The translations under genes and the position numbers were made by a program. This document shows, piece by piece, positions 10,711 through 50,778 of a DNA stretch of 64,000 bases. The notes under the pieces are model-generated. The model was not told the origin of the DNA and searched no databases. It saw only the letters and a list, made by a program, of their open reading frames with translations. This DNA comes from Falsiroseomonas bella. GTDB lineage: Bacteria > Pseudomonadota > Alphaproteobacteria > Acetobacterales > Acetobacteraceae. The stretch covers positions 620,001-684,000 of the forward strand of contig NZ_QGNA01000001.1 in the NCBI RefSeq assembly GCF_003173615.1, read 5' to 3'. Position 1 is the stretch's first letter. Every line of letters starts with the position of its first letter.

Positions 10711-10835
10711 GCGGCCGGCGACCGGCCGGCCGAGCGCGCGCATGCGCGCCGCGCCCGGACTGTCCGCGCCGACAAGCGCGGCAGTGCCTGGCGCGAAGCC
10801 AAGCGGCCGGAGGCCGCGCCCGGCGTCTGAGGGCA
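10711..10835 (+). repeat. multi-hairpin intergenic element R1
   Basis: Lies between flgE and flgK, with its 3' tag (CGGCGTCTGAGGGCA) pointing opposite to flgK transcription. Stems include GGCCGG/CCGGCC with loop CGA (10713-10727), CCGCGC/GCGCGG, and GCGGCC/GGCCGC with loop GGA (10803-10817), preceded by AAGCCAAGC as in R2 and R3. It aligns with R2-R4 in stem order and tag but not in arm sequence. Confidence 0.7.
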
Positions 10836-10839
10836 CTCG

Positions 10840-12207
10840 CTATCTCCGCATGTTGATGGTGTCCTGCAGCATCTCGTCTGCCGCGGTCACGATGCGCGTG
10901 TTCGAGGTGTAGGCGCGCTGCGCGAGGATCAGCTTCGAGAACTCGCCGGCGATGTCGACGTTGGATCGCTCCACCGCGCCCGTCACCAGCTTGCCCACGC
11001 CGTTCGAGGCGGCATCCGTCACGCGGGCCTCGCCGCTCTCCACCGTGCGCATGAAGGCCTGGCCGTCCAGGCGCTGCAGCCGGTCCGGATCGTTGAAGGC
11101 AACCACCGGCACGCGCGCGACGATGCGCGTCTGGCCGTTGTCGTAGTTCACCGCGACATCGCCATTCTCCCGCACGATCACGCCGGAATAGGCGCCGAGC
11201 GGCACGCCGTCCTGGCTGAGGTCGCGCACGCCGTATTCGGTGCCGGCATAGTTGGTCAGACCGGTCGGCACGCCATAGCCACCAAGCCGGAGCGAGATGT
11301 CCTGGTTGCCGAAGCCGTAATCGGCGGTGAAGCCAAGGGACGCCGGATCGCCGACGGCCAGCGGCGCCGGCACTGTGCCCGTGGTCGCCGAGAGCGGCAC
11401 GATGGAGGAGACGGTGCCCGGCGGCGCGGTGACCGCCGGCGGGCCGGCGCTGATCACGCCGCCGAAGTTCACGTCCACGAAGCGCCCGTTCGCGGGCGCC
11501 AGCGTGTCGCCCGCCGGCGTGATGCGCAGGCGCCAGGTGTCGTCGTCCAGCTTCCACCAGTCCAGCGTCACCTGGCGCTGGTTGCCGAGCGCATCGAAGA
11601 TCTGCAGCACGGAGGAGACGGGCGGTTCCGCCGGCGCCCAGGGCGCGGCGGCGGGGACGGCCGCCACCTGCGGCACGTTGAAGGGCAGGTTGGCGGCCAA
11701 GTCGATCCGGCTGGTCGGCACGGGGTTGTAGACCAGCTCCGTGATGCGGATCGGCGCCAGCGCGGTGCGGTCCGGCTCGCCGGTCGGCAGCATGCGCCAG
11801 CCCTCGAGGTAGTAGCTCGATCCGTTCACCATGTAGCCGTCTCGGTCGAGCGCGAAGTCGCCGGCGCGGGTGAAGAACTGCCGCTCGTCGAACAGCGGGT
11901 TGCCGATCGTGCCGCCGCGCGACTGCGCGACGGAGAAGAAGCCCTGCCCGGCGATCGCCATGGCGAGCGGGTTCTCCACCTGCTCGATCGCGCCCTGCAC
12001 GGTGTTGGTGTAGTCCGGCCGCGCCTCCACGCTGCCGGGCATGTGCAGGCGGAGCGTGGAACGCGTGAGCCAGCTCGTGAAGTTGGTGTCAACGCGCTTG
12101 AAGCCGACGGTCTGGCTGTTGGCGACATTGTCCGACACATGGCCGAGTGCGCGCGACTGCGCGGTCAGGCCGCTGATCGCGGTGGTCATCGAGCCGAGCA
12201 GCGACAT
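10840..12207 (-). CDS. flgE: flagellar hook protein FlgE
   Basis: A 455-residue hook subunit. The ATG at 12207 begins the conserved rod-class N-terminus (MSLLGSMTTAISGLTAQSRA, then VSDNVANSQTVGFKRVDTNF); the longer upstream frame has no family sequence. The C-terminus (SNVDIAGEFSKLILAQRAYTSNTRIVTAADEML) is the matching coiled segment. A consensus sigma-54 promoter lies about 43 bases upstream, and GAGGATC precedes the start at suitable spacing. It heads the leftward flagellar run and faces fliK. Confidence 0.95.
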   Translation of the reverse strand: MSLLGSMTTAISGLTAQSRALGHVSDNVANSQTVGFKRVDTNFTSWLTRSTLRLHMPGSVEARPDYTNTVQGAIEQVENPLAMAIAGQGFFSVAQSRGGTIGNPLFDERQFFTRAGDFALDRDGYMVNGSSYYLEGWRMLPTGEPDRTALAPIRITELVYNPVPTSRIDLAANLPFNVPQVAAVPAAAPWAPAEPPVSSVLQIFDALGNQRQVTLDWWKLDDDTWRLRITPAGDTLAPANGRFVDVNFGGVISAGPPAVTAPPGTVSSIVPLSATTGTVPAPLAVGDPASLGFTADYGFGNQDISLRLGGYGVPTGLTNYAGTEYGVRDLSQDGVPLGAYSGVIVRENGDVAVNYDNGQTRIVARVPVVAFNDPDRLQRLDGQAFMRTVESGEARVTDAASNGVGKLVTGAVERSNVDIAGEFSKLILAQRAYTSNTRIVTAADEMLQDTINMRR

Positions 12208-12249
12208 CCGGGATGATCCTCGTTGGCGGATTCGTTCGGGACCGGGATC

Positions 12250-12264
12250 GCAACCCGCGTGCCA
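12250..12264 (-). promoter_or_regulatory. sigma-54 promoter of flgE
   Basis: On the minus strand the sequence reads TGGCACGCGGGTTGC, a full match to the TGGCACG-N4-TTGC consensus with correct spacing. Transcription would begin near 12238, giving a leader of about 31 bases that includes GAGGATC before the flgE ATG. Confidence 0.85.
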
Positions 12265-12360
12265 GCTTCGGCGCGGCTGATGCGCGACAAGGCTTGCCGC
12301 CCGCCGGCAGGATTTGCCCGGCGGCGGCGCGTGATTGCCGGCTCGCGCCGCGGAGCGCGC

Positions 12361-12374
12361 GGCACGGCGCTTGC
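12361..12374 (+). promoter_or_regulatory. sigma-54 promoter facing fliK
   Basis: GGCACGGCGCTTGC matches the -24/-12 consensus with correct spacing; only the base before GG differs (C for T). Transcription would begin near 12386, only three bases before the ATG at 12389, so fliK may be nearly leaderless or start further in. Confidence 0.72.
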
Positions 12375-12388
12375 GCAGGCGGCGCCGC

Positions 12389-13948
12389 ATGGACGCGTTG
12401 CCCCCCCTGTCGCCCCAGCCCGTGATGCCCGCCGCCCCGGCGGCGCAAGACGGTGCCGATGCCGCCGGCTTCGCCGTGCTGCTGGCCGGACTCGTCGCGC
12501 CAACCACGGAGGCACCGGCGCTGGGTACCGGATTGATCGCGCCGTCGCCCGTCGCGCCGGCGGTGCTGCCGCCTGCCACGCCTGAACTCGCGGTGGCGCT
12601 GCCGTCGCTGCCGCTCTCCGCGCCGATCATCCTTGTCGAACAGGAGGCGGTCGAGACCGCGCCGGAGCATGTCGCTGCGATGCCCGTCGCGGAGGAGGCG
12701 GCGAAGGAGGACAGCACGGCGGTCGTTGAAGAAGCACCGGTCCTCGTCGCCGCTCCGACCGTCGCGATGCCGGTGGCGACGCCGCTCGCTTCGCCGCTCG
12801 CGCCGCCGCCGCCGGCACCCGTTGCCTCTGCGGTCGCACCGGCGGAGGAGCCGGGCGTCGCAGCCGCGCCGCAGCCGAGCCTGCGCGCCGAGCCCACGCC
12901 GGCCGCGCCGCCACGTCAGGCGCAAGTCGCGCCGGCGTCCGATTCGCCTTCGCCTGCTCTGCCGCCGGCCGTGACGGGCGCAGCGCCGCCCTCGGCCGCG
13001 ACGGAGCCCGCGCAACCCGCGGCCCCGCCGCCCGTCGTTACAGCTGCGCCACCGGAAGCACCCAAGGTCGCCGCGCCGGAGCCGACGGTCTCGCCGCGCG
13101 CCGATGCGCCGGCCGTCGCTGCGCCCGCGCCCTTGCCGCCGCGCGAGGCGGAGGTCGCCTCGCCCCTCCTCGCCGCACGGCCGGAGGGAGCGGCTGCGCC
13201 CGTGGCGCCGCCCGCGCCCGCACCGCGTACCCCAGCATCGGCGGTTACCGCGACGGCACCGCTCGCGGCGCCCGAGGACGCGCCCGCGATCCCGCCGCCC
13301 GCCACCGCGCCTGTCGTGCCATCGCCCGCCGTCGCGCTGTCACCGGCGGCGCAGGAGGCGGAGCCGGCGGTGCAGCTTCCCGCACCGGTCGCCACGCCTG
13401 CCGCGGTGGAGCCGGAGCGCAGCCGGCGCGTCGCCTCGCCCGATCCATCGCCCGAGGTGGAGACGGCGGCCTGGCAGCCGCCCGCGCCGCCCACCGCGGA
13501 TGCGCCCGCGCCCCCCGCGCCCGCGCCGGCCCGCGCGGCGGCGCCCGTGCCCTGGCCGGCACGCCAGGTCGCGCCCTTCGTGGTGGCGCTCGCGCTCGGT
13601 CCCGATTCCCGTCTGGAACTGACGCTCGAACCAGGCGAGCTCGGACGCGTCGAGGTCGCCATCGAGCGCAGCGGGGGCGAGGCGATGGTCAGCCTGCGCG
13701 CCGAGCGCGCCGATACGCTCGCGCTGCTGCAGCGCGACCGCGCCGAGCTGGAACGCGCGCTCTCCGATGCGGGGCTTGGCGGCGAGGGCCGCGGCGCAAG
13801 CCTCTCCTTCGGCCTGGGCGGCGAGGGATCGGCGCGCCGCGAGCGGCGCGAGGCACGACACCAGGCGCCGCCCGCGCCGCAGCGCGACATCGTCGCCGCA
13901 TCCCCTTCCGGCAGCGCGTCGCGCGGCCTGATCGACCTCGCCATCTGA
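12389..13948 (+). CDS. fliK: flagellar hook-length control protein FliK
   Basis: About 519 residues from the ATG at 12389. The first 400 or so residues are low-complexity Pro/Ala, as is common in FliK rulers from GC-rich bacteria. The C-terminal domain carries the family signature (LELTLEPGELGRVEVAIERSG, then VSLRAERADTLALLQRDRAELERALSDAG). FliK measures the hook and switches export to filament proteins. The start is uncertain: the sigma-54 site places transcription onset almost at 12389, and GTG 12421 or ATG 12424 are alternatives. It heads the rightward flagellar operon, 16 bases before flgD. Confidence 0.88.
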   Translation: MDALPPLSPQPVMPAAPAAQDGADAAGFAVLLAGLVAPTTEAPALGTGLIAPSPVAPAVLPPATPELAVALPSLPLSAPIILVEQEAVETAPEHVAAMPVAEEAAKEDSTAVVEEAPVLVAAPTVAMPVATPLASPLAPPPPAPVASAVAPAEEPGVAAAPQPSLRAEPTPAAPPRQAQVAPASDSPSPALPPAVTGAAPPSAATEPAQPAAPPPVVTAAPPEAPKVAAPEPTVSPRADAPAVAAPAPLPPREAEVASPLLAARPEGAAAPVAPPAPAPRTPASAVTATAPLAAPEDAPAIPPPATAPVVPSPAVALSPAAQEAEPAVQLPAPVATPAAVEPERSRRVASPDPSPEVETAAWQPPAPPTADAPAPPAPAPARAAAPVPWPARQVAPFVVALALGPDSRLELTLEPGELGRVEVAIERSGGEAMVSLRAERADTLALLQRDRAELERALSDAGLGGEGRGASLSFGLGGEGSARRERREARHQAPPAPQRDIVAASPSGSASRGLIDLAI

Positions 13949-13964
13949 TGAAGGAATCCGCGCG

Positions 13965-14621
13965 ATGAGCGGCAGCCTCTCCGTTTCCGCCACCGGCGGT
14001 AGCGCCGCGCGCCCGACGGGCCCGCGCCTCTCCGCCGATCTCGGCACCTTCCTGACGCTGCTGACGACGCAGCTGCGCAACCAGGACCCGACCAAGCCGA
14101 TGGACACGGAAACGCTGACCCAGCAGCTGGTGCAGTTCGCCAGCGTGGAGCAGCAGCTTGCCGGCAACCAGACGCTGGAACGCCTGCTGACGCTGCAGCA
14201 GGCCGGGCAGCTTGCCGAGACCGCGTCGCTGATCGGGCGGCGCGTGACGGTGGAAAGCGACACGCTGCCGCTGCAGGACGGACAGGCGGAGGTGGTGCTG
14301 CCCGCCGCCGGCGCCGCCCGTAGCGCCGTGATCGAGGTGCAGGATTCCACCGGCGCCGCGCTGCGGCGCGAGACGGTGACGCTCGGTGCCGGTGCGCGGA
14401 GCTGGATCTGGGACGGCCGCGACGATCGCGGCACGCGCCGCGGCGACGGCGCCTATCGCGTGGTGGTGACCGGCCGCGCCGAGGACGGCACCGACCTGCC
14501 GATGACCGCGACCGTCGCCGGCCGCGTGACCGGCGCGGCGCGCAGCGAGGGCGAGCTGGTGCTGCGCCTGGGCGCCGCGACCATCGGCTTCGACAGGCTG
14601 CGGGAAGTGCCGGGCTCTTAA
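13965..14621 (+). CDS. flgD: flagellar hook capping protein FlgD
   Basis: A 218-residue hook scaffolding cap. The N-terminal hallmark TFLTLLTTQLRNQDPTKPMD with TETLTQQLVQFASVEQ (about residues 28-63) is diagnostic. The rest is a Tudor/Ig-like beta region with WIWDGRDDRGTRRGDGAYRV, the FLGD Ig motif. It guides assembly of FlgE subunits outside the cell. It follows fliK closely, so hook growth and length control are encoded together. Confidence 0.95.
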   Translation: MSGSLSVSATGGSAARPTGPRLSADLGTFLTLLTTQLRNQDPTKPMDTETLTQQLVQFASVEQQLAGNQTLERLLTLQQAGQLAETASLIGRRVTVESDTLPLQDGQAEVVLPAAGAARSAVIEVQDSTGAALRRETVTLGAGARSWIWDGRDDRGTRRGDGAYRVVVTGRAEDGTDLPMTATVAGRVTGAARSEGELVLRLGAATIGFDRLREVPGS

Positions 14622-14732
14622 CTCCGCCGTTACCGCTCCCCGGCAAGAAATGCCGCCGAAGGACGGCGGAGCAGGGTTGCCGGGCATGTATGGCGCAAGA
14701 GGCGCAAGGGCACAGTCGGCCGCGGGGCGCGC

Positions 14733-16415
14733 ATGGGCGGGCTGATCGCGCAGCTGCGCGGCTTCGGTCCGTTGCGCCTGGCCGCGCTGGCCGGCGTGGG
14801 CGTCGCGCTGCTCGGGTTGCTGGCCTTCCTGGCGCTGCGCGCGGCGGACCCGCCGATGGCTCTGCTCTATGGGGAGCTCGAGCAGCGCGACGCGGCGCAG
14901 GTGGTGGCCGCGCTGGAACGCCAGCGCATCCCGCATCGCCTGGCCGGCGGCGGCAGCCAGGTGCTGGTGCCGGAAGCCGAGGTGGCCCGTGTCCGCCTGC
15001 TGCTGGCGCGCGAGGGCCTGCCTTCCGGCGGCTCCGTCGGCTACGAGATCTTCGACCGCGGCGAGCGGCTGACGACCACGCCCTTCCAGCAGGACATCAA
15101 CCGCCTGCGCGCGCTGGAAGGCGAGCTGTCGCGCACCATCCGTGGCCTGAATGGCGTGCGGCAGGCGCGCGTGCACCTGGTGCTGCCGCGGCGCGAGCCC
15201 TTCTCGCGCGAGCGGGGGGAGGCGCAGGCCTCCGTCGTGCTCACCATGGTCGGCGCGCAGCGCCTCGACCGGGAGGGCGTGCAGGCGGTGCTGCACCTCG
15301 TCTCCACCGCGGTGCCGGGGCTGCGCCCGCAGAACGTCTCCATCGTGGACAGCCGCGGCGAGCTGCTGGCGCGCGGCGGGCAGCCGATCTCCGGCCCCGC
15401 GGCCGCGCAGACCGCCGACGAGCTCCGCCGCGGGCAGGAGCTGCGCCTCGCGCGTGCCGTGGAAGACCTGCTGGAACGCACCCTCGGGCCGGGCCGCGTG
15501 CGCGCGGAAGCGGCGGTCGAGCTCGATTTCGACCGCGTGCAGACGCAGGAGGAGCGCTTCGACCCCGAGAACCAGGTGCCGCGCAGCACGCAATCCACGC
15601 AGGAGACCAGCCGCAGCACCGAGCCGGGGAATGTCTCCGTGCAGAACCAGCTGCCGGGCGGGGCGAACGAGCAGGGCGGCGCGCGCACCGACCAGTCGCG
15701 CCAGGAGGAGACGACGAATTTCGAGATCGGCCGCACCACGCGCAACACGACGCGCGAGCAGCCCTCGGTCCGGCGCATCTCCGTCGCGGTGCTGGTGGAT
15801 GGCGTGTGGGAGCCGGTGGAGGGTGCCCCGCCGCGCTGGCGCGAGCGAAATGCGGACGAGCTGGAGCGGATCGCTGCGCTGGCCCGCTCCGCCGTCGGCT
15901 TCGACGAGCGGCGCGGCGACAAGGTGGAGGTGGTGAGCCTGCGCTTCGCGGAGCCGCCGCCGGCCGATCTCGCGCCCGAGGGTTTCGTCATCCTCGGCCA
16001 GACCGTGCCGCCGGCGCTGATGGGGCGCATCGTCGAAAGCGCGATCCTGGCGCTCGTGGCGCTGGTGGCGATCCTGCTGCTCGGCCGGCCGCTGGTCGGG
16101 CGTCTCGGCGTGGCGCTGGCGCCGCCGCCCGCGCTCGCCGCCGCCGGCGCTGGCGCCCTGCCGGGCGGGGTGGAGGCGCAGGGCGTGCTGCCCGGCGGCG
16201 GGCCGGCCGCGCTCGCCGCGGGCGGCAGCCCCGCGCTGCCCGGTGCCGCGGGCGAGGGTGCCGCGCCCGCGGATGACCGGATGGTCAATGTCGAGCGCGT
16301 GGACGGGCAGATGCGTGCCTCCGCGCTGCAGGCGCTGGCCGATCTCGTGGACGCCAACCCCGACCAGAGCGCGGCCGTGCTGCGCCGCTGGCTGACGCCG
16401 CAGGACGATGATTGA
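14733..16415 (+). CDS. fliF: flagellar MS-ring protein FliF
   Basis: A 560-residue membrane protein that forms the MS ring under the rod. A transmembrane helix lies at about residues 16-38 and another at about 430-450. The periplasmic part contains the YscJ/FliF segment [21 protein letters not shown] and [33 protein letters not shown]. The C-terminal tail ([24 protein letters not shown]) is the FliG-binding helix. The stop overlaps the fliG start (TGATG). A weak sigma-54-like site (TGGCGCAAGAGGCGC, 14691-14705) lies in the 111-base gap after flgD. Confidence 0.96.
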
Positions 16416-17419
16416 TGGCGTATGGCAAGGGACTGACCGGGCCGCAGAAGGCCGCGACGCTGATGCTGGCGCTGCGCGAGGAGCAGGCCGCCAAGGTCTT
16501 CGCGTTGCTGCACGAGGACGAGATCCGCGACCTGTCCATCGCCATGGCGGCGCTGGGAACCGTTCCGTCGGGCCAAGTGGAGGAGGTGGCGCGGGAGTTC
16601 ACGGCGGCGCTCGGCCAGACCGGGCATCTCGTCGGCTCCTTCGAGGTGACGGAGCGGCTGCTGCTGAAGTCGTTGCCGAAGGAACGCGTGCACCAGATCA
16701 TGGAGGAGATCCGCGGCCCCGCCGGCCGCACCATGTGGGACAAGCTGGGCAACGTGAACGAGGCGGTGCTCGCGAACTACCTCAAGAACGAATACCCGCA
16801 GACCGTCGCCGTCGTGCTGTCCAAGGTGCGGCCGGACCATGCCGCGCGCGTGCTGGCGCTGCTGCCGGAAGCCTTCGCCATGGAAGTGGTGATGCGGATG
16901 CTGCGCATGGAGACGGTGCAGAAGGAGGCGCTGGAGGGCGTGGAGCGCACGCTGCGCCTGGAGTTCATGTCCAACCTCGCCCGCGGCTCGCGCCGCGACG
17001 CGCATGAGGTGATGGCGGAGATCTTCAACAACCTCGACCGCGCCGCCGAGACGCGCATCCTGGCCGCGCTGGAGGAGCGCAACCGCGAGAGCGCCGAGAA
17101 GATCCGCGCGCTGATGTTCACCTTCGACGACCTGCAGCGACTGGACCAGGCCGGCATCCAGGTGCTGCTGCGCAGCGTGCCGAAGGACAAGCTGGTGCTG
17201 GCGCTGAAGGGCGCTTCGGAGAACCTGCGCGACATGTTCTTCCGCAACCTGTCGGAGCGCGCGGCGAAGCTGCTGAAGGACGACCTGGCGGCGCTCGGTC
17301 CGGTGCGCCTGCGCGACGTGGACGAGGCGCAGGCCACCATCGTCGGGCAGGCCAAGGACCTGGCCGCGCAGGGCCAGATCCAGCTGGCCGACGGCCGCGA
17401 GGACGAGATGATCGCATGA
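16415..17419 (+). CDS. fliG: flagellar motor switch protein FliG
   Basis: A 334-residue rotor protein. The ATG at 16415 overlaps the fliF stop and is preceded by AGGACGA; an in-frame TTG at 16412 is less likely. The middle domain contains [25 protein letters not shown], including the EHPQ-type motif as EYPQ. The C-terminal torque domain contains [24 protein letters not shown] and the charged helix [16 protein letters not shown]. It links the MS ring to the C ring and works with stator proteins not encoded here. The start of fliH overlaps its stop. Confidence 0.97.
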
Positions 17420-18042: not shown

Positions 18043-18362
18043 GCGGCGAGCAGGGGTTCGAACCGGTCCCGGTGACGGAGGCGCAGCAGGGCGCGGCATC
18101 GCCCGGCCAGCGTGACCTCGATGCAGTGTACGACATCCCGGTGCAGGTCAGCGCCGTGCTCGGCCGCGCCACGATGCAGGTGAGCCAGCTGCTCAAGCTC
18201 GGCCGCGGCGCGGTGGTGGAGCTGGACCGCAAGCTGGGCGAGGCGGTGGACATCTATGTCAACAACCGCCTCGTCGCGCGCGGCGAGGTGGTGATGGTGG
18301 ACGACAACCGGCTCGGCGTGACGATGACCGAGATCGTCAAGGCCGATCGCGGGGGGCAGTGA
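18039..18362 (+). CDS. fliN: flagellar motor switch protein FliN
   Basis: A 107-residue SpoA-family protein of the C ring. The ATG at 18039 overlaps the fliH stop. The SpoA core is clear: YDIPVQVSAVLGRATMQVSQLLKLGRGAVVELD, then VDIYVNNRLVARGEVVMVDDNRLGVTMTEI. It has the short length typical of FliN rather than FliM or FliY. The transcript then meets element R2 before flbD. Confidence 0.95.
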   Translation: MSGEQGFEPVPVTEAQQGAASPGQRDLDAVYDIPVQVSAVLGRATMQVSQLLKLGRGAVVELDRKLGEAVDIYVNNRLVARGEVVMVDDNRLGVTMTEIVKADRGGQ

Positions 18363-18385
18363 GCGCCATGAGGATCGGGCATGAC

Positions 18386-18474
18386 ATGCGGCCTGCAAGG
18401 CAGGCCGAGGCCGCGAATGCGGCCCGCCGCACATGCGGCGCAAGCCAAGCCGGCGGAGGCCGGCGCTTGAGGCA
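18386..18474 (+). repeat. multi-hairpin intergenic element R2
   Basis: Fills most of the gap between fliN and flbD. Stems in order: GGCCTGC/GCAGGCC with loop AAG (18390-18406), GGCCGC/GCGGCC with loop GAAT (18409-18424), GCCGC/GCGGC with loop ACAT (18426-18439), then AAGCCAAGC and GCCGGC/GCCGGC with loop GGAG (18449-18464), ending in the tag CGGCGCTTGAGGCA. It stops six bases before the flbD ATG, so it occupies the place where a ribosome site would be. Confidence 0.78.
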
Positions 18475-18480
18475 CCAATA

Positions 18481-19854: not shown

Positions 19855-19857
19855 CGC

Positions 19858-21924
19858 ATGCGCACGATCGTACTGCCGCATTGGGTCGGGCTTGCGAAGC
19901 CCTCGGGCGACGTGGCGCTCGGGCTCGGCGTCGTGATGCTGGTCGCGGTGCTGGTGGTGCCGCTGCCGCCCTGGTTGCTGGATGTCGGGCTAGCGTTGTC
20001 CATCACCGCCTCGGTGCTGGTGCTGATGGTCTCGCTCTTCATGCACCGGCCGCTGGACTTCACGGCCTTTCCCACCGTGCTGCTGCTGGCGACGCTGCTG
20101 CGCCTGGCGCTGAACGTCGCGACCACGCGCGCCATCCTGACCTCCGGCCATGAAGGCGAGCAGGCGGCGGGCGCGGTCATCTCGGCCTTCGGCGGCTTCC
20201 TGATGGGCGGCGACGTGCTGGTGGGGCTGATCGTCTTCGCGATCCTGCTGGTGGTGAATTTCGTCGTCGTGACGAAGGGCTCCGGCCGCATCGCGGAAGT
20301 GGCCGCGCGCTTCAGCCTGGATGCGATGCCGGGCAAGCAGATGGCGATCGACGCCGACCTCTCCGCCGGCATCATCACGGAGGCCGAGGCCCGCACCCGC
20401 CGCAAGGAGCTGGAGGAGGAAAGCAGCTTCTACGGCGCCATGGACGGCGCCGCCAAATTCGTCCGCGGCGACGCCATCGCGGGCCTCGTCACCACCTTCA
20501 TCAACCTGCTCGCTGGCATCGCCATCGGCACGCTGCGCCACGGCCTGCCCTTCGGCGAGGCGGTGGCGACCTTCTCCTTCCTCACCGTGGGCGACGGCCT
20601 CGTCGGCCAGATCCCGGCGCTGCTGGTCTCGGTCGCGGCCGGCATCGTGGTGACCAAGGGCGGCGTGGAGGGCCGCGCGGACAAGGCGCTCGCTTTGCAG
20701 CTCGGCGGCGCGAAGCCGCTGGCGCTCGCGGCCGGCGCGGCGGGCTTCATGGCGCTGCTGCCGGGGATGCCGATGCTGCCCTTCCTCGGCCTGGCCGGCG
20801 CCGCCGCGTGGCTCGCGCGGGAGCAATGGCGCGCCGACCGGCGCAAGGAAGCAGAGGCCGCGGCACCGCCGCCCGCGCCATCCGAGCCGCCGCCGGCCGA
20901 TGCGCTGAAGATGGACCTGCTGCGGCTCGAGCTCGGCTATGGGCTGCTCAGCCTCGCGGCCGGCGACGCGCCGCGGCTGTCGGAGCAGATCCGCGCGCTG
21001 CGCCGCACGACGGCGCAGGAGATGGGCTTCGTGCTGCCCTCCGTGCGCATCCAGGACAATCTGCAGCTTCCGCCCGACACCTATGTGGTCCGCGTGAAGG
21101 AGATCGAGGCCGGGCGCGGCGTGCTGAAGCCGCCGCTGCATCTCGCCATCGATCCCTCCGGTAACCCGCCGCCGATCCAGGGCGAGCGTGTGCAGGAGCC
21201 AAGCTTCGGCCTGCCCGCCGCCTGGATCGAGGAATCGCGGCGCGAGGAGGCTCTGGCGCTGGGCTGCACCGTGGTGGATTCCGCCGGCGTGCTGGCGACG
21301 CACCTGACCGAGATCGTGCGCGACACCATGCCGGAGCTGCTCTCCTTCGCGGAGACCCAGAAGCTGCTGGACGAGCTGCCGCCCGAGCATCGGCGCCTGG
21401 TCTCCGACCTGATCCCGGCGCAGGCCAGCATGGGCACGGTGCAGCGCGTGCTGCAGGCGCTGCTGGCCGAGCGCGTCTCCATCCGCGACCTGCCGACCAT
21501 CCTCGAGGGCATCCAGGAAGCCGCCGCCATCGGAACGCGCAGCCTGCCGGGCATCGTGGCGACGGTTCGCGCGCGGCTGGCACGGCAGATCAGCGACGCC
21601 GCGCGCGCGCCGCATGGCGCTATCCCGATCGTCTCGCTCGCCGCGGAATGGGAACGCGACTTCGCCGAATCCCTGGTCGGGCCGGGCGAGGAGAAGCAGC
21701 TCGCCATGGCGCCCTCGCGCCTGTCGGACTTCATGGCGGCGCTGCGCGCGGCCTTCGACGCGGCGAGCGCGCAGGGCGAGCCGGCGGTGCTGGTCTGCTC
21801 CGGCGGCATCCGCGCGCATGTGCGCGCCGTGGTCGAGCGCTTCCGGCCGCAGACCGTGGTTCTCGCCCATGCCGAGATCCACCCGCGCGCGCGCATCCGC
21901 ACCGTGGGGACGGTCGCCGGATGA
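19858..21924 (+). CDS. flhA: flagellar export gate protein FlhA
   Basis: A 688-residue export-gate membrane protein. The first 330 residues hold about eight membrane segments and the family signature LLRLALNVATTRAIL (about residues 80-94), followed by the conserved cytoplasmic loop (ARFSLDAMPGKQMAIDADLSAG). The C-terminal cytosolic domain receives export substrates. It starts four bases after flbD. flhB and the other gate genes are not in the window. Confidence 0.97.
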   Translation: MRTIVLPHWVGLAKPSGDVALGLGVVMLVAVLVVPLPPWLLDVGLALSITASVLVLMVSLFMHRPLDFTAFPTVLLLATLLRLALNVATTRAILTSGHEGEQAAGAVISAFGGFLMGGDVLVGLIVFAILLVVNFVVVTKGSGRIAEVAARFSLDAMPGKQMAIDADLSAGIITEAEARTRRKELEEESSFYGAMDGAAKFVRGDAIAGLVTTFINLLAGIAIGTLRHGLPFGEAVATFSFLTVGDGLVGQIPALLVSVAAGIVVTKGGVEGRADKALALQLGGAKPLALAAGAAGFMALLPGMPMLPFLGLAGAAAWLAREQWRADRRKEAEAAAPPPAPSEPPPADALKMDLLRLELGYGLLSLAAGDAPRLSEQIRALRRTTAQEMGFVLPSVRIQDNLQLPPDTYVVRVKEIEAGRGVLKPPLHLAIDPSGNPPPIQGERVQEPSFGLPAAWIEESRREEALALGCTVVDSAGVLATHLTEIVRDTMPELLSFAETQKLLDELPPEHRRLVSDLIPAQASMGTVQRVLQALLAERVSIRDLPTILEGIQEAAAIGTRSLPGIVATVRARLARQISDAARAPHGAIPIVSLAAEWERDFAESLVGPGEEKQLAMAPSRLSDFMAALRAAFDAASAQGEPAVLVCSGGIRAHVRAVVERFRPQTVVLAHAEIHPRARIRTVGTVAG

Positions 21925-21947
21925 AGTCCCTGGATGTCCGCCATCCC

Positions 21948-22060
21948 ATGCGGCCCGCGGAGCGGGCCGAGCCGCCGAATGGCGGCCGCGCCAAGTGGCG
22001 CGAGCCAAGCACGCGGATGCGTGCGCCGGCGCCTGAGGGCGGAATGCGCCAGCATTCCGC
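21948..22060 (+). repeat. multi-hairpin intergenic element R3
   Basis: Fills the 145-base gap between flhA and flhF. Stems in order: GGCCCGC/GCGGGCC with loop GGA (21952-21968), GCCGCC/GGCGGC with loop GAAT (21971-21986), CGCGCCA/TGGCGCG with loop AG (21987-22002), GCACGC/GCGTGC with loop GGAT (22009-22024), tag GCGCCTGAGGGC, and a terminal 9-base stem GCGGAATGC/GCATTCCGC (22039-22060). The flhF ATG is nine bases further on. Confidence 0.78.
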
Positions 22061-22069
22061 AACGCCGAT

Positions 22070-22957
22070 ATGAGGCTTCGCACGATCCGCGCGGCGCGCA
22101 TGGGCGAGGCGATGGCGACGCTGCGCGCCGAGCTCGGCGAGGAGGCCGTGATCCTCGGCACGCGCCACGTCGCGGGCGGCGTCGAAGTCACCGCGGCGCT
22201 GGAGAGCGGCGACGACGAGCCGCTGGTCATCGCGCCGGATGCGCCGCACGCGGCCGCCATCCCGGCCGCGCTGCGGCGCCACAACCTGCCGCATGCGCTG
22301 GCGCAGCGCCTCGCGGGCGGAACGCTGGAAGCGGCGATCGCACGGACCTTCCGGTTCGAGGCGCTACCGCTCTCGGCCGCGCCGCTGCTGCTCTCGGGGC
22401 CGCCCGGCGCGGGCAAGACGACGAGCTGCGCAAAGCTCGCCACGCGGCTCGTGCTCGGCGGCACGAGGCCCTTGCTGATCACCGCCGATGGGCGGCGCGC
22501 CGGTGCGGCGGAGCAGCTCGCCGCCTTCGCACGCGTGCTGGACCTGCCGCTGGCCATCGCGAATTCGCCCGCGGCGCTGGCCAAGGCGCTGGCGCGGCGC
22601 GCGGCGGGCCAGCCGGCGCTGGTGGACCTGCCAGGCTGCGATCCCTTCGACGATGCCGCGGCGCGCCGCCACGCCGCGCTGGTGGAGGCCGCGCGTGGCA
22701 CGCCGGTGCTCGTGCTGCCGGCCGGCCTGGATGCCGAGGAAGCGGCCGAGACGGCGCGCGCATTTCATCTGCTCGGCTGCCGGCACCTGCTGCCGACGCG
22801 CCTCGATGCGGCGCGGCGGCTCGGCGGCGTGCTGGCCGCGGCGGCGGCGGCCGACCTCGCCTTCACCGAGGCCGGCACCGGCATGGATGTGGCCGACGGC
22901 TTGACTCCGCTGGCAGCGGCCTGGCTCGCGCAGCGGCTTTCGCAGGGGGTGTCGTGA
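22070..22957 (+). CDS. flhF: FlhF-like SRP-family GTPase
   Basis: A 295-residue protein, shorter than typical FlhF (about 380-480). The N-terminal segment (MGEAMATLRAELGEEAVILGTRHV) matches the conserved FlhF start. The P-loop GPPGAGKTT is at 110-118, and TRLDAARRLGG stands where SRP GTPases have the TKLD guanine-specificity motif. The DTAG-type motif appears as DLPG, so catalysis may be altered. FlhF marks the pole for flagellar assembly. It overlaps the following FleN-like ATPase gene by four bases, the usual FlhF-FleN pairing that sets flagellar position and number. Confidence 0.87.
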   Translation: MRLRTIRAARMGEAMATLRAELGEEAVILGTRHVAGGVEVTAALESGDDEPLVIAPDAPHAAAIPAALRRHNLPHALAQRLAGGTLEAAIARTFRFEALPLSAAPLLLSGPPGAGKTTSCAKLATRLVLGGTRPLLITADGRRAGAAEQLAAFARVLDLPLAIANSPAALAKALARRAAGQPALVDLPGCDPFDDAAARRHAALVEAARGTPVLVLPAGLDAEEAAETARAFHLLGCRHLLPTRLDAARRLGGVLAAAAAADLAFTEAGTGMDVADGLTPLAAAWLAQRLSQGVS

Positions 22958-26084: not shown

Positions 26085-26089
26085 GCGCG

Positions 26090-37821: not shown

Positions 37822-37879
37822 GGGACCGGGGGTTCGGGCGCGGTTGGAGACGTTCGATCTGTGTTCTATATCCTGGGGT

Positions 37880-41495: not shown

Positions 41496-41513
41496 CGCCG
41501 ACGGCTGCGCGCC

Positions 41514-41552
41514 AAGCCCCTTGCGAGGGCTTGCCGGGCCGCTTCGCGGGCC
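41514..41552. terminator. hairpin pair between convergent prmA and FG-GAP genes
   Basis: AAGCCC/GGGCTT (41514-41519 with 41527-41532) and GGCCGC/GCGGGCC around TTC (41537-41552) form two adjacent GC hairpins 19 bases after the prmA stop. They have no T run. The stems and loop recall elements R1-R4 read on the minus strand, but the TGAGGGC tag is absent. A transcription end point is the simplest reading. Confidence 0.42.
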
Positions 41553-41672
41553 TGCCGGCCTTCGCGCCGCCGGACGGCACGCTGCCGGTGAAGGACAGGC
41601 GGCATCGGAGACGCGAGCACGTCGCGACCAGCATCGGCCTCGTCGTGCGCGCGGCTGGGCGAGGCGCGCGCT

Positions 41673-44696: not shown

Positions 44697-44818
44697 CCTG
44701 CAACTATCCCGTTTCCGCAACGGCATGTTGCCTGATGCGATGGGAGGCCGGAAGATCGCTTTGTCGGGTGCCGGGCCGCAGTGCGTCCGGCGCCGTCAGG
44801 CCCTGGCGGCGCGGCGCT

Positions 44819-45265
44819 TCATGCGGGGCTGGCCGGCGCCAGGTGGCGGATCGGCAGGCCGATGGCCTCCGCCACCAGCGTGCGGTGGCACTGCGCGGGA
44901 TCGGCTTCGAGGCAGAGCAGGCAGACCGGTTCGCGCGCCGCGCGCGCCTTCAGCTCGGCCAGTGCCGCCTGCGGCTCCACCCCGGCGAGATGCGCGGCGA
45001 AGATGCGCCGCATCGCCTCGGGCTTGCCGCTGCGCGCCGCCTGTCGTCCGGCCGCCGGCGTCCCGAGGGCGGGCATGTGCGCGTAACCGATCCCGGCCTC
45101 CGCCAGGGCGGCGGACAGCGCGCGCTTGGCGAAGCCGGGACGGCGACTGTTCGCCAGCGCGCGCACATCCACCACGGTCGTGATGCCGGCCTGCCGCAGC
45201 GCCGCGACGAGCGCCGCCGGCGTCGCCTCCTCGTAGCCGATGGTGGCGACGGCCGGCCCGGTCAC
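44819..45265 (-). CDS. DUF488-family protein
   Basis: A 148-residue protein with a GTG start. It opens with ATIGYEEATPAALVAALRQAGITTVVDVRALANSRRPGFAK and ends with EPVCLLCLEADPAQCHRTLVAEAI, both diagnostic of DUF488, a Rossmann-like family with a conserved C-x-E-x-D-x-x-x-C-H-R motif. The function is not established. It follows the malic enzyme gene on the same strand by 30 bases and may be its operon partner. Confidence 0.88.
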   Translation of the reverse strand: MTGPAVATIGYEEATPAALVAALRQAGITTVVDVRALANSRRPGFAKRALSAALAEAGIGYAHMPALGTPAAGRQAARSGKPEAMRRIFAAHLAGVEPQAALAELKARAAREPVCLLCLEADPAQCHRTLVAEAIGLPIRHLAPASPA

Positions 45266-45295
45266 GCCGTCACTTCGTCGCCGCGGCGTGCGCCA

Positions 45296-47605
45296 TCATT
45301 TGGTTGCCGCGGCATGTGCCGCGAGACACGCCACGTCCAGGATCTGGTTCACCCCCGCCTGCATCGGCACGATCTGGGCCGAATGCGTCAGCCCGGTCAG
45401 CAGCGGGCCGATCACCTGCGAGCTGGTCAGCTTCGGCACCGCCTTGGTGAGCACATGCGCCGCATGCAGCCCCGGCATGATCAGCACATTCGCCGGCCCG
45501 GTCAGGCGGCAGAAGGGATAAAGCGCCGCGCGCAGAGCGGGATCAAGCGCGACATCGGCCGCCATCTCCCCGTCGAACTCGAAATCCGCGCCGCGCTCGG
45601 CCAGCAGCTTCACCGCGTCGCGGATCGAGCCTGGGATGCTGCCCTTCGGATCGCCGAAGGTGGAGAAGGAGAGGAAGGCCACGCGCGGCTCCAGCCCCAG
45701 CCGCCGCGCCGCCGCCGCCGAGCCGCGCGCGATGGCGGCCAGCGTCTCGGCGTTCGGGCGCTCATGGATCGCGGTGTCCGCCACCAGCACCGTGCCGGCG
45801 CGGCGCGAGACGACGATCGAAAGCCCGAAGACCGAGCGGCCGGGAACGGGGTCGATCGCCATGGAGATGCCCTCCATCGCGACGGAATAGGACCGCGTGC
45901 TGCCGGTGACGATCGCATCGGCATCGCCGCATGCCACCATGCAGGCGGCGAAGACGTTGCGGTCCTGGTTCACCAGGCGCTGGCAGTCGCGGAACAGGAA
46001 GCCGTCGCGCTGCTTGCGCTTGTAGAGGAACTCCGCGTAGCGGACGTTGGAATCGGAGACGCGCGCATTCTGGATCTCGATTCCCGCCGGCAGCGGAATG
46101 CCGAGCGCCGCGGTGATCGCGTTGATCCGGTCCTCCCGCCCGACCAGCACCGGCGTGCCGTAGCCGGCATTGAGGAAGGCGATCGCCGCGCGGATCACCT
46201 TCTCCTCCTCGCCTTCGGCGAAGACGACGCGCTTCGGGTTGTTGCGCACCGACTCCGCGATCGCCTCCAGCGCGCCGACCGTCGCGTCCAGCCGGTTCGC
46301 CAGGTCGCGGGCGTAGCGGTGCAGGTCGGCCAGCGGCTTGCGCGCCACGCCCGATTCCATGGCCGCCTTCGCCACCGCCGGCGAGACGCGGCTGATCAGG
46401 CGCGGGTCGAAGGCGTTGGGGATGATGTATTCCGGGCCGAAGCGCAGCGACTTGCCGGCGCCGGCGCCCGCCACTTCCTCCGGCACGTCCTCCCGCGCCA
46501 GCATGGCCAGCGCCTCGGCCGCCGCGATCTTCATCGCGTCGTTGATCGTGCTGGCGCGGACGTCCAGCGCGCCGCGGAAGATGAAGGGAAAGCCGAGGAC
46601 GTTGTTGACCTGGTTCGGATAGTCCGACCGGCCCGTGGCGACGATCGCGTCGGGCCGGGCGGAGCGCGCCTCGTCCGGCGTGATCTCGGGGTCGGGGTTG
46701 GCCATGGCGAAGATGATCGGCTTCGGCGCCATGGCGCGGACCATGTCGGGCGTCAGCGCGCCCTTCACCGACAGGCCGAAGAACACGTCGGCGCCGTCCA
46801 GCGCCTGGGACAGCGTGCGCGCCGGCGTCTCCACCGCATGCGCCGACTTCCACTGGTTCATGCCCTCGGTCCGGCCGCGCCAGATCACGCCCTTGGTGTC
46901 GCACAGCAGAACATTCTCGGGCCGCATGCCCATCGCCTTCACCAGCTCGGCGCAGGCGATGGAGGCCGCACCCGCGCCGTTGATCACCAGCTTAGTCGTC
47001 TTGATGTCGCGCCCGGTCAGGTGGATGGCGTTGATCAGCCCGGCCGCGGCGACGATCGCGGTCCCATGCTGGTCGTCATGGAAGACCGGGATGTCCATCA
47101 GCTCGCGCAGGCGCTGCTCGATGACGAAGCATTCGGGCGCCTTGATGTCCTCGAGGTTGATGCCGCCGAAGCTGGGCCCGAGGTAGCGCACCGAGTTGAC
47201 GAAGGCGTCCACGTCCTCGGTGTCCACGCAGAGGTCGATGGAATCGACGTCGGCGAAGCGCTTGAACAGCGCCGCCTTGCCCTCCATCACCGGCTTGGAG
47301 GCCAGCGCGCCGAGATTGCCGAGGCCGAGCACCGCGGTGCCGTTGGACACGACCGCAACGAAATTGCCCTTCGCCGTGTAGTCGTAGGCAAGCTTCTTGT
47401 CGCGATGGATGTGCAGGCAGGGCTCCGCCACGCCCGGACTGTAGGCGAGCGACAGGTCCCGCGCGGTGATCAGCGGCTTGGTCAGGCGGATCTCCAGCTT
47501 GCCGGGGCGCCCCTCGGCATGCATGGCCAGCGCTTCCTCCGCCGTGATCCGGGCCGTGCGTGTGTCCCCGACAATCTCGCCAGGCGTCTTGCGCGCGTCG
47601 TCCAT
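45296..47605 (-). CDS. maeB: NADP-dependent malic enzyme with phosphotransacetylase-like domain
   Basis: A 769-residue two-domain enzyme of the MaeB type. The malic domain occupies about residues 1-430, with [34 protein letters not shown] and the NADP-binding [18 protein letters not shown]. The C-terminal half, to about 765, is a phosphotransacetylase-like regulatory domain ([31 protein letters not shown]). It decarboxylates malate to pyruvate and makes NADPH. GGAGAAAG precedes the ATG. The 114-base gap upstream holds no gene. Confidence 0.96.
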
Positions 47606-47719
47606 CGTTCCGGCTTTCTCCCCAACCTCAGGGACACTTATGAGGCCGGGCGCGTCGCGGCGGAAGCCGGGCGCTTCGCAGGTGCGGCGATGGGGGGCCT
47701 GCAGGGCGGGCGGGCCGCC

Positions 47720-49051
47720 TCAGCCTTCCATCGCTTCGGGCGTGGCGGCGGGGCGCAGCAGGGCGAAGGCCAGCAGGATGGCAAGAAGCAGTGCGCCGGC
47801 GAGCGCCGGGGCCCGCCAGTCTCCCGCCAGCACCCGGTTGGCCAGCAGCGCGGCGCAGACCAGGGCGCCCGCGGCGGGCACGATCGCCGGAACCTCGAAG
47901 CCGCCATGCGGTTCGCCGGCCCGGCGCTGCAGCACCAGCAGGGCCACGTTCACCACGCTGAACACGCCGAGCAGCAGCAGCACCGTCGCCGCGGCGAGCT
48001 GGCCGATATCGCCCGCCAGCACCAGCGCCAGCACCACCGGCAGCAGCGCCAGGATCGCCACATGCGGCGTGTGCCGCCGCGGATGGATGCGGGTCAGCGC
48101 GGGCGGGAACAGCCCGTGCCGCGCCATGCCCAGCAGCAGGCGCGAGGCGGTGACGTAGTTCAGCAGCCCGGTATTCGCCACCGCGAAGAGGGTGATGGCG
48201 GCATAGCCCCACTCCGGGAACCAGGGCGCGGCGCGCGCCATGACCGCCACCAGCGGGCCGGGCGCGACCGCAAGCTCCTGCCACGGCACGACGGAGACGG
48301 CGGTGATCGCCACGGCGATGTAGAGCGCCGTCGCGGTGAGCATCGCCGCGATGATGCCGATCGGCAGGGTACGGCGCGGGTTGCGCGCCTCCTCCGCGAC
48401 GTTCAGCGTGTCCTCGAAGCCGATGAAGGCGAAGAAGGTCAGGATCGCGCCGGTCATCAGGAAGGACAGGCCGATGCCCTCGCCGGTCGGCGTCTCCAGC
48501 AGCGGCCGGCTGCCCCACCAGCCGATGCCGACCACGATCACCAGCACCAGGCCGCAGGCCTCGATGACGGTGCAGACGATGTTCACCCACATGCTCTCGC
48601 GGATGCCGCGCAGCACGATGCCGGCCAGCAGCAGCACGAAGCCGATCGCCACCGCGACTGCCGGCACGGCCTGCAGTCCCGTGAGCGCGAGCAGGTTCGC
48701 CGCCACGACTCGCGACTGAGTCGCGACCGAGGTGAGGCCGGAAGCCATCACCGCCAGGCCCACCACCCAGGTCAGCAGCGGCATGGCGAAGGCGCGCCCG
48801 GTGACGTAGGCAGCGCCGCCCGCCCGCGGATAGCGGCTGCCGAGCGAAGCGTAGGACAGGCCTGTCAGCAGCGCCGCGACCATCGCCACCAGAAAGCCGA
48901 GCCAGACGGCCGAGCCCAGTTCGCCCGCCGCGCGCCCGACCAGGCCGTAGATACCGGCGCCGAGCATCCCGCCGAGCGTATACGCGAACAGCTGGAAGGG
49001 CCCGATGCTGCGCTGCAGACCCGGCTGGGCGACGACACCCTGCTCCGCCAT
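47720..49051 (-). CDS. APC-family amino acid permease
   Basis: A 443-residue inner-membrane transporter with about twelve helices. The APC start is clear (FQLFAYTLGGMLGAGIYGLVGRAAGELG), including the G-A-G-I-Y helix break, and FFAFIGFEDTLNVAEEARNPRRTLPIGI is the conserved loop before helix 7. It probably imports an amino acid or amine by proton symport; the substrate is unknown. It is divergent from TTT operon 1, with a 130-base gap. Confidence 0.9.
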   Translation of the reverse strand: MAEQGVVAQPGLQRSIGPFQLFAYTLGGMLGAGIYGLVGRAAGELGSAVWLGFLVAMVAALLTGLSYASLGSRYPRAGGAAYVTGRAFAMPLLTWVVGLAVMASGLTSVATQSRVVAANLLALTGLQAVPAVAVAIGFVLLLAGIVLRGIRESMWVNIVCTVIEACGLVLVIVVGIGWWGSRPLLETPTGEGIGLSFLMTGAILTFFAFIGFEDTLNVAEEARNPRRTLPIGIIAAMLTATALYIAVAITAVSVVPWQELAVAPGPLVAVMARAAPWFPEWGYAAITLFAVANTGLLNYVTASRLLLGMARHGLFPPALTRIHPRRHTPHVAILALLPVVLALVLAGDIGQLAAATVLLLLGVFSVVNVALLVLQRRAGEPHGGFEVPAIVPAAGALVCAALLANRVLAGDWRAPALAGALLLAILLAFALLRPAATPEAMEG

Positions 49052-49181
49052 GCGTCAAGGCCCTCCTCAGTACGAGACGCGCCGGCCGGCCGGCCGGTTT
49101 CGCGCGCGCCGTTTGCGCCCGTGGTGCGGCTGTCCTAGGCTTTCCGCAACACCGCAGACCGATCGATTCCGGGGAGGAACC

Positions 49182-50156
49182 ATGAGCCTGCATCGTCGCA
49201 ACCTGTTCACCGCCGCCCTCGGCCTTTCCGCAGCCGGCATGATGGGCTCGCCCGCCTGGGCGCAGCAGCGTTTCGCCAACATCTACATGTTCGTCCCAGC
49301 CGGCCCGGGCGGCGGCTGGGACGGCCTCGGCCGCGCCATCGAGCAGGTGGCCCGCGGCGCCGGCCTGGTCGGAAACTTCCAGTTCGAGAATGTCGGCGGC
49401 GCCGGCGGCATGGTGGGCCTGCCGCGCTTCGCGTCGCAGCGCCGCGGCCGCGCGGACAGCCTGATGGTCGGCGGCTCGGTGATGGTCGGCGCGGGCATCA
49501 CCAACAAGTCGCCGATGACGATCAAGGACGTGGTGCCGATCGCGCGCATGACGGAGGAGATCGGCGTGGTCGTCGTGCCCTCCTCCTCCGAGTTCCAGAA
49601 CATGGGGCAGCTGCTGCAGGCGCTGCGCACGAACCCCGGCGCGGTGGCGGTGGGCGGCGGCTCGGCCGGCGGCACCGACCACATCACGCTCGGCCTGATC
49701 CTGAAGGCGCTCGGGCGCAACCCGCGGGAGGCCTCCTATGTCGCCTTCGCCGGCGGCGGCCCGGCCCAGGCCGCGATCATCGGCGGCCAGGTGAAGGCCG
49801 GCATCTCCGGCTATTCGGAGTTCGCCGAGCAGATCAAGGCGGGCCGTATGCGCGCGCTGGCCACGACGGGCGAGCGCCGGTCCGATCCGAACGTGCCGAC
49901 GCTCAAGGAGAGCGGGGTGGATGTCGTCACCTCCAACTGGCGCGGCGTGTTCGGCGCGCCCGGCATCAATGCCAGCCAGCGCCAGGCGCTGACCGACCTG
50001 ATGACGGCGATCCATGCGTTGCCGGCCTGGAAGCAGACCCTCGAGACGCGCGGCTGGGACGACGCCTTCCTCGCCGGTGCGCCGTTCGCGGAGTATCTGA
50101 ACCGCGACATCACCTCCACCGAGGAGGTGCTCCGCGACCTCGGCCTCGCGACGTGA
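49182..50156 (+). CDS. tctC: TTT extracytoplasmic receptor (Bug family), operon 1
   Basis: A 324-residue periplasmic binding protein. The ATG follows GGGGAGG, and the signal is twin-arginine-like (SLHRRNLFTAALGLSAAGMMGSPAWAQ). Bug features are the first ligand loop (MFVPAGPGGGWDGLGRAIEQ), VENVGGAGGMVGLPRF, and GGGSAGGTDHITLGL. Bug receptors usually bind di- or tricarboxylates; the ligand is not predictable. It heads a tctCBA operon and overlaps tctB by four bases. Confidence 0.93.
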   Translation: MSLHRRNLFTAALGLSAAGMMGSPAWAQQRFANIYMFVPAGPGGGWDGLGRAIEQVARGAGLVGNFQFENVGGAGGMVGLPRFASQRRGRADSLMVGGSVMVGAGITNKSPMTIKDVVPIARMTEEIGVVVVPSSSEFQNMGQLLQALRTNPGAVAVGGGSAGGTDHITLGLILKALGRNPREASYVAFAGGGPAQAAIIGGQVKAGISGYSEFAEQIKAGRMRALATTGERRSDPNVPTLKESGVDVVTSNWRGVFGAPGINASQRQALTDLMTAIHALPAWKQTLETRGWDDAFLAGAPFAEYLNRDITSTEEVLRDLGLAT

Positions 50157-50653
50157 CGAAGGCGCGGCCGGACCGCGCGGATCTCGGTGCCGGGCTCGCC
50201 GTTCTGGGGCTCGGCGGGGTCGCGGTCTGGCAGGCGCTGGCGATCCCGACCTCGCCGCTCTACGCGCAGGTCGGGCCGAAGCTCGTTCCCTGGCTGGTCG
50301 CCGCCGGGCTGCTGGTGCTCGGCGCGCTGCTGACGGCGGCGGCGCTGCGCGGCGGCTGGTCGGCGGACATCCCGGAGATCGCGGAGGCGCCGCCGCCCAA
50401 TCCGCGCTCTCTGGCGCTGCTGCTGGCGGGGCTGCTGGCGAACCTGGTGCTGATCGGGCCGCTCGGCTTCACCCTCGCCGCCACGGTGCAGTTCACGCTG
50501 GTGGCGGCCGCCTTCGGCTCCCGCGCGTATCTGCGCAACGCCGTGATCGCCTTCGTCGTGGCGCTCGGCGCCTACACGCTCTTCGTCAAGCTGCTCGGCG
50601 TGAACATCGGCGCGGGCCTGGTCGAGGGCCTGGTGTTCGGAACGCCGGAGTGA
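50153..50653 (+). CDS. tctB: TTT small membrane subunit, operon 1
   Basis: A 166-residue membrane protein with four predicted helices, starting with GTG inside the end of tctC. The pattern [43 protein letters not shown] is typical of TctB, where the P-x-x-x-P segment follows the first helix. It works with TctA. Unlike operon 2, where tctB and tctA overlap, a 130-base insert with element R4 separates it from tctA. Confidence 0.9.
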
Positions 50654-50670
50654 TCGCGCGGCGCCATACT

Positions 50671-50778
50671 CCGGGCCGCGAACGCGGCCCCGCGCACGAC
50701 GCGCGCAACGGCGCCGTCGCGACAGTGCGTCGGCGCGCAAGGCAAGCCACCGAAGGTGGCGCGCGCCGCCTGAGGGCA
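50671..50778 (+). repeat. multi-hairpin intergenic element R4
   Basis: Sits between tctB and tctA. Stems: GGGCCGCG/CGCGGCCC with loop AA (50673-50690), CGCGC/GCGCG (50691-50705), the palindrome ACGGCGCCGT (50708-50717), then CAAGGCAA and GCCACC/GGTGGC with loop GAA (50746-50760), ending with the tag GCCGCCTGAGGGCA. The tctA ATG is five bases downstream, so the tag overlaps the place for ribosome binding. Confidence 0.78.

Follow-up and report, generated by a model that had tools for sequence, protein, structure and literature searches.

We describe here an intergenic multi-hairpin element present in four copies, R1 to R4, within a 64,000-nucleotide stretch of the Falsiroseomonas bella genome (the window; positions 620,001 to 684,000 of contig NZ_QGNA01000001.1), all read on the plus strand. 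R1 (10685..10839) occupies the entire gap between a flgK-type start (10684) and a flgE-type stop (10840), both on the minus strand, and its core (10712-10834), which has the long form of hairpin 3, is antisense to both genes. R2 (18363..18480, 118 nt) runs from the fliN-type stop TGA (18360-18362) to the ATG (18481) of a sigma-54 activator gene; its core spans 18389-18474 and its tag, TGAGG, ends 6 nt before the ATG. R3 (21925..22070, 146 nt) lies between two TGA triplets (21922-21924 and 22071-22073) at an flhA/flhF-type junction, and R4 (50654..50783, 130 nt) separates the tctB stop TGA (50651-50653) from the tctA ATG (50784). Pfam places these neighbors as FlgK-type and FlgE-type (R1), FliN-type and sigma-54 activator (R2), FHIPEP (FlhA) and SRP54-GTPase (FlhF) (R3), and TctB and TctA (R4). 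R3 shows the anatomy most fully, with hairpins 1, 2, and 3 at 21951-21969, 21971-21986, and 21987-22002, an outer GCC/GGC pairing (22004-22006 with 22028-22030) that encloses hairpin 4 (22009-22024), and a tag (22028-22040) followed by hairpin 5 (22041-22058). R4 is degenerate, with a model match at 50704-50777, first stems that are recovered only loosely, a tag TGAGGG ending 6 nt before the ATG, and a second Shine-Dalgarno (SD)-like sequence, AGGA, between tag and ATG.

An earlier note on this DNA had given these four positions and a common layout of stem 1, stem 2 with a GAAT-like loop, stem 3, a AAGCCAAGC-like spacer, stem 4 with a GGA, GGAT, or GAA loop, and a closing GGCGYCTGAGGGC-like tag, and all of these parts were found. 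Measured from the tag, the distance to the ATG is 6 nt for R2 and R4, and for R3 it is 29 nt to the ATG at 22070 (open reading frame 22070-22957) because the fifth hairpin sits after the tag; our in-house gene caller picked 22100 as the start, and relatives align from 22070. A covariance model built from 27 short-form copies scores R3 at 82.4 bits, R2 at 72.1, R1 at 58.8, and R4 at 33.8 (E 0.0017), with the next-best match in the window at 17.7, although only R1 and R4 are independent matches because R2 and R3 are among the training rows. All four fold better than dinucleotide shuffles, with z values on the plus strand of -3.4 for R3 and R2, -3.0 for R1, and -2.2 for R4, and on the minus strand of -2.7 for R3, -2.4 for R2, -1.7 for R1, and -1.8 for R4. 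Neither the tag alone (18 matches with up to two mismatches, 21.5 expected) nor GCCAAGC alone (20 matches, 19.1 expected) exceeds chance in the window. Rfam 15 at its gathering threshold matched only a tRNA within the window, and membership of an Rfam family at that threshold was rejected on this result.

The element is built in a fixed order of a variable hairpin 1, an A, hairpin 2, hairpin 3, the spacer (A)AGCCAAG, hairpin 4, and the tag, with hairpin 5 in some copies. We parsed 164 copies into 64 with a short form of hairpin 3, 78 with long or other forms, and 22 in which hairpin 2 was unclear; the loops were counted in the 64. The hairpin 2 loop is mostly GAAT, GAAC, GAAG, or GACT, the short-form hairpin 3 loop is NNRT, and hairpin 4 has GGA, GGAT, GGAG, and other loops and is closed by the outer GCC/GGC. 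The stems vary freely, and there is little change between orders in the loops, spacer, and tag, of which only the loops count as free evidence, the spacer and tag also being the search key for the cross-order copies. Some tags read GGCGTCTGAGGGC and hence contain CGTC. Other variants are seen in hairpin 3. A second palindromic unit close to TCACGCCGNAGGCGTGCCTTCGGCACG, or parts of it, lies in this region in four copies of the F. bella genome (L002, L003, L009, and L017) and in one from genome G006 (L028), where it is tandemly repeated, so that the elements are mosaics. In five Sphingomonas/Erythrobacter-type copies (L067, L075, L090, L092, and L117) hairpin 3 is close to CCGAGCTTATGCGAGG and would pair only with tandem G-A mismatches. 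Whole cores are also found head-to-tail at L165 (G000:C7:374892-375087, G000 being the F. bella genome), L049, and L308, with short linkers that are A-rich in L165 and L308.

The pairing of the stems is well conserved. In the 63-row A5 alignment 94.4% of cells pair, both sides are changed in 24 of 29 pairs, and the covariation score is 0.447, compared with 0.101 for shuffled and at most 0.061 for slid partners; the 70 distinct F. bella rows behave similarly (96.8% of cells, 22 of 29 pairs, and 0.430 versus 0.098 shuffled and at most 0.060 slid). The A3 and A5 alignments were fitted to the model, A4 was not counted, and the A2 covariation test is biased because its rows were drawn from copies already parsing as hairpins. 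The unbiased test of pairing uses copies chosen by primary sequence alone and covers hairpin 4, where at least four pairs are formed by 61 of 83 distinct segments (36 different first tetramers), compared with 4.0 on average and 9 at most after shuffling. Paired changes are also seen between species at orthologous copies, in stem 4 of R4 (CCACC/GGTGG versus CCGCC/GGCGG), in the outer stem (GCC/GGC versus GGC/GCC) and stem 4 of R1, and in hairpin 5 of the L173 insertion. That arms differ between copies with pairing kept is thus borne out, and the covariation between scattered copies shows a constraint on the folding of one strand. Selection on a folded strand, as proposed in the earlier note, is also our reading; RNA and single-stranded DNA are equally compatible with these data, and a mutational origin of the pairing is weighed below. 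Because the loops, spacer, and tag are near-constant while the stems change in pairs, we think that the core is probably constrained by a protein or the gene-expression machinery meeting it as a folded strand.

The four copies belong to a large family. The motif pair GCCAAGC...GGCGYCTGAGGGC is matched exactly at 21 places in the 5.94-Mb genome, a reversed control at none, and among 99 genomes in a sample of relatives it occurs in 21, comprising all 15 of the genus (F. bella included), six of 44 others of the family, and none of 40 outside it. Searching with the covariance model at E <=0.001 raises the count for the F. bella genome to at least 65, many more than the four from which the earlier note had argued. 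None of the outcomes that the note had named as refuting, namely only four chance-like copies, no significant covariation, or pairing no better than in shuffled DNA, was obtained. At least 16 of 289 genomes match at E <=1e-5 in a class-level scan and at least six of 299 in a phylum-level scan, F. bella being included in both and all six of the latter belonging to the same class; these genome-scan numbers are lower bounds because only part of the candidates were scored (150 in the F. bella scan and 14 per genome in the class and phylum scans). A scan of named-species genomes with spacer and tag gives at least 113 stretches, and the genera among the matches listed are Roseomonas, Neoroseomonas, Plastoroseomonas, Roseicella, Roseococcus, Acidiphilium, Azospirillum, Nitrospirillum, Sphingomonas, Rhizorhabdus, Erythrobacter, and Porphyrobacter, which we take to represent the Acetobacteraceae, Azospirillaceae, and Sphingomonadales. 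Plasmids and phages were searched with one query each, using different copies, and gave no match, and presence on either was rejected at that depth. Genome G069 has 22 matches with 92-100% identity over 136-153 of 153 bases, although several touch contig ends and in a few cases the assembly could have divided a single copy; the near-identical sequences of these copies (L310-L322 and L350-L356) point to a recent burst of transposition.

The flanks of the 22 G069 matches delimit the element and thereby fix its ends, which read TAC(C/T)AAG...CCTGGTA with TNA on both sides. Terminal inverted repeats (TIRs) of this TACC...GGTA-like type are present in copies of G069, G100, and G101 and in part of the F. 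bella copies, and a copy with recognizable ends has about 146 bp (132-221) between target duplications. Across all loci examined the center base of TNA is the same on both sides in 32 of the 35 copies with recognizable ends, where 29% agreement is expected (P about 2.5e-14 if the copies are independent), and reading by eye gave agreement in 24 of 25 pattern-called pairs, a count that omits L318 (TTT/TTA), L327, L328, and four G100 copies whose ends are altered but appear consistent. R3 is flanked by TGA on both sides. Long target duplications were also sought and none was found, shared stretches being near control level.

Comparison of related genomes reveals both filled and empty sites. In most alignable relatives the genes around the R2, R3, and R4 junctions overlap or lie within 25 nt of each other. 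R2 is absent from all seven alignable relative loci, one of them in a second flagellar cluster, and G007 reads TGATG at this position. We also note that in G008, G013, G006, G012, and G004 the flagellar region surrounding R2 and R3 is present a second time, at approximately 75% similarity (L247-L251). R3 is absent from eight of nine alignable relatives, with G007 reading ATGA; in the ninth, G013, the same ATGA is occupied by a copy distinct from R3, 196 nt long (L237) and with GGCATGA on both sides, which is probably an independent insertion at this flhA/flhF-type junction. R4 is absent from ten of 12, seven of those ten reading TGATG, and is present in G005 and G009, whereas R1 is present at the same junction in G007 and appears absent in G009. 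The cleanest event is L198 in the F. bella genome, a single 140-nt insert relative to G007 with ATGA on both sides, absent also in G009; the upstream gene stops within this ATGA, and the gene caller puts the start of the downstream gene there without its SD bonus and 51 nt later with it. R1 to R4 are mobile insertions rather than orthologous leaders. Because the ends, the target duplication (as TNA, for copies with both ends recognizable), and the empty sites are seen for part of the copies, we file the family as a variant of the miniature inverted-repeat transposable elements (MITEs), distinguished by its unusually conserved multi-hairpin core, and we consider it quite probable that R1 to R4 represent a non-autonomous, MITE-like mobile family of alphaproteobacteria that combines insertion with a conserved folded core.

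These observations suggest how the element might enter operons. It inserts at TNA and duplicates it, as seen for copies with recognizable ends. Because TGA is itself a TNA, an insertion into ATGA or TGATG leaves TGA on the upstream side of the element and (A)TGA or TGATG on the downstream side, with both stop and start surviving and neither gene broken. Entry via stop-start overlaps is supported by the filled and empty pairs for R3 and L198 and is likely for R2 and R4, and such sites could reflect either a preference of the enzyme or the insertions that survived. When the element points forward, the tag sequence TGAGG may then serve the displaced downstream gene as a ribosome-binding site, as its position suggests: of the 65 copies whose 3' gene is co-oriented, 22 have a start codon 2-12 nt behind the tag, 12 of these at exactly 8 nt, and another SD-like core intervenes in just one of the 22 (R4). 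Genes were called with an in-house codon-usage caller whose bonus for SD-like starts could favor the tag, although without it the same 22 copies and the mode at 8 are kept and neighbor counts shift by one. Upstream, the stop lies exactly 26 nt before hairpin 1 in ten of 37 F. bella copies with a co-oriented upstream gene and in five of 78 in other genomes. We would guess that a DDE transposase acting in trans moves the element. The IS1031 group of the IS5 family makes a 3-bp TNA target duplication as here, and its ends start GAGCC where those of this family have TACC; we treat the resemblance as a lead only.

Several observations sit poorly with a mobile element of this design. Constant core and divergent ends are the opposite of an ordinary MITE, and many copies have no clear inverted repeats, including R1, R2, R4, and the inspected Sphingomonadales copies. 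R2 and R4 have unlike flanking triplets, TGA and TAA, and the TNA comparison covers only copies whose ends fit a pattern that itself requires the T and the A; by eye, L318 (TTT/TTA) and L355 (TAA/TTA), together with L327 and L328, which have no TNA pair, speak against a TNA duplication. Over 217 copies the flanks share no more sequence than re-paired flanks. The search for a mobilizing enzyme was likewise negative. A profile search of the F. bella genome with Y1_Tnp (PF01797) gave no matches, and a PF01609 search of four genomes gave six loci in G000 and G100 that lack the TACC/GGTA pair (one weak unrelated end pair in L373 and one unpaired TNATACC in L375) and no matches in G069 and G101. No TIR pair spaced 600-4000 bp apart occurs in any locus examined, and no insertion sequence with the ends of this family was found at the six PF01609 loci, the genome-wide TIR pattern with two mismatches being too loose to use (255 matches versus 126 in the control). 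When the 3' parts of orthologous copies are folded, the minimum-energy structure sometimes differs from the model fold, and in antisense copies SD-like sites before the next start are not enriched (15 of 34, versus 24 of 56 window genes).

The genomic setting bears on what the copies might do once inserted. Only one of 70 F. bella copies and none of 155 others lie inside called genes; a small number of the 70 are truncated where a locus ends and could duplicate another row, and the pair counts use the 66 with both neighbors. Relative to the element, the 5' and 3' neighbors of these 66 are opposite/opposite in 27, same/opposite in 20, same/same in 16, and opposite/same in three, so that antisense within a co-directional pair and convergent are the commonest settings, and the corresponding numbers for 147 copies elsewhere are 64, 37, 39, and seven. 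The earlier note implied a leader RNA, and cis-acting regulatory leaders (riboswitches, attenuators, or thermometers) of downstream genes would account for the start codons close behind the tag and for near-constant loops with covarying stems. However, the 3' gene is co-oriented in only 19 of 66 copies in F. bella and 46 of 147 elsewhere, and within co-directional pairs the antisense orientation is more common than sense, 91 to 55 (P 0.0036; 27 to 16 in F. bella, P 0.13 and not significant, and 64 to 39 elsewhere, P 0.018), although copies are not independent events. A sense-only leader, which would keep a constant sense orientation to the neighboring gene, was rejected because both orientations occur and antisense is the more frequent; with the element also missing at the same gene in most alignable relatives and matching TNA on both sides where ends are recognizable, we regard a leader function as very unlikely. 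A role at transcript 3' ends, with copies acting mainly as terminators or mRNA stabilizers like other 3' untranslated region repeats, has in its favor that the 3' neighbor is opposite in 48 of 67 F. bella and 104 of 150 other copies, that its stop is no more than 17 nt from the tag in 19 of the 48 and 47 of the 104, and that convergent pairs are common. Yet about two thirds of copies lie between co-directional genes (43 of 66 and 103 of 147), where termination would do harm, and the 16 nt after the tag are A-rich rather than T-rich (A 0.30 and 0.37, compared with 0.20 and 0.23 in front of hairpin 1 and 0.14-0.15 at greater distance; T 0.16 and 0.15), which makes this role improbable as the main one.

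A further alternative accepts the mobile element but attributes the pairing of its stems to a mutational process, either palindrome-perfecting template switching or conversion between copies, rather than to selection on a folded product. Whole arms do change together at orthologous copies, as in L166 and its G007 counterpart (GGCCGC/GCGGCC versus GCGGCC/GGCCGC, with flanks 90 and 99% identical), although palindrome repair alone does not explain the near-constant unpaired loops across orders (nor the spacer and tag, with the qualification noted above), and single-pair compensations are also seen, as in R4. We consider this explanation unlikely, but with enough weight to temper any statement about selection. 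Least credible, we think, is that the family is a repetitive extragenic palindromic (REP) or bacterial interspersed mosaic element (BIME)-type repeat moved by a REP-associated tyrosine (Y1) transposase (RAYT). The copies are short intergenic palindromes that are rare between divergent genes (three of 66 and seven of 147, compared with eight of 56 window pairs, the others being 40 co-directional and eight convergent), and REPs likewise lie mostly between unidirectional and convergent genes according to PMC3733652. Against this stand the lack of a Y1_Tnp match in the F. bella genome, the several hairpins in place of one, the TNA duplications, and the reported absence of CGTC repeats from the Acetobacteraceae (PMC3733652). 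REP/RAYT identity was rejected for want of a RAYT in this genome and for the four hairpins.

Several described repeat families come close to this one. Bacterial MITEs (Correia/NEMIS, ERIC, RUP, and YPAL) resemble this family in being 100-200 bp long, mostly intergenic, and scattered in many places, with TIRs, a target duplication, and transcripts predicted to fold (PMC2229807), but a table in that source gives TA at the ends of most families where we see TNA. The present family differs as well in its four to five separate hairpins and in that the inner core, not the ends, is common to orders. The Chunjie MITE of Geobacter uraniireducens sits, according to its title, in an operon without disturbing it; it has another host and a length of 178-235 bp, and no statement on stop-start junctions or a ribosome-binding site was seen for it (PMC10969869). 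The CIR repeats of Caulobacter and Brucella are also alphaproteobacterial, intergenic, and composed of several hairpins, but are described with a GANTC site at the loop (PMC2229807); GANTC occurs in only 46 of 225 copies of our family with flanks, the usual loops being GAAT-like and NNRT, and CIR identity was rejected. The GTAG and CGTC REPs share the character of palindromic intergenic repeats, and the CGTC type is mostly alphaproteobacterial with no known transposase, but they are described as a single hairpin (CGTC stem 8-9 bp) with an unpaired tetranucleotide (PMC3733652), unlike the four hairpins without a GTAG tag seen here. No publication on this family was found by title or abstract among open-licence PubMed Central (PMC) papers, which is weak evidence of absence.

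It is possible, and we propose it tentatively, that the core is a functional RNA or folded single-stranded DNA module in a transposable element lineage specialized on translationally coupled junctions, in which TNA targeting would save the stop and start, the tag would give a ribosome-binding site, and a conserved partner (a transposition factor, the ribosome, or RNA polymerase) would recognize the core, so that operons keep working. The family suggests how a small mobile element can colonize tightly packed operons, since the duplicated triplet can itself be a stop codon and the element may bring its own ribosome-binding site. Hairpins that might be taken for regulatory leaders in many alphaproteobacterial genomes are also accounted for, and the scattered copies of the family, with their filled and empty sites, make selection on folding after insertion measurable.

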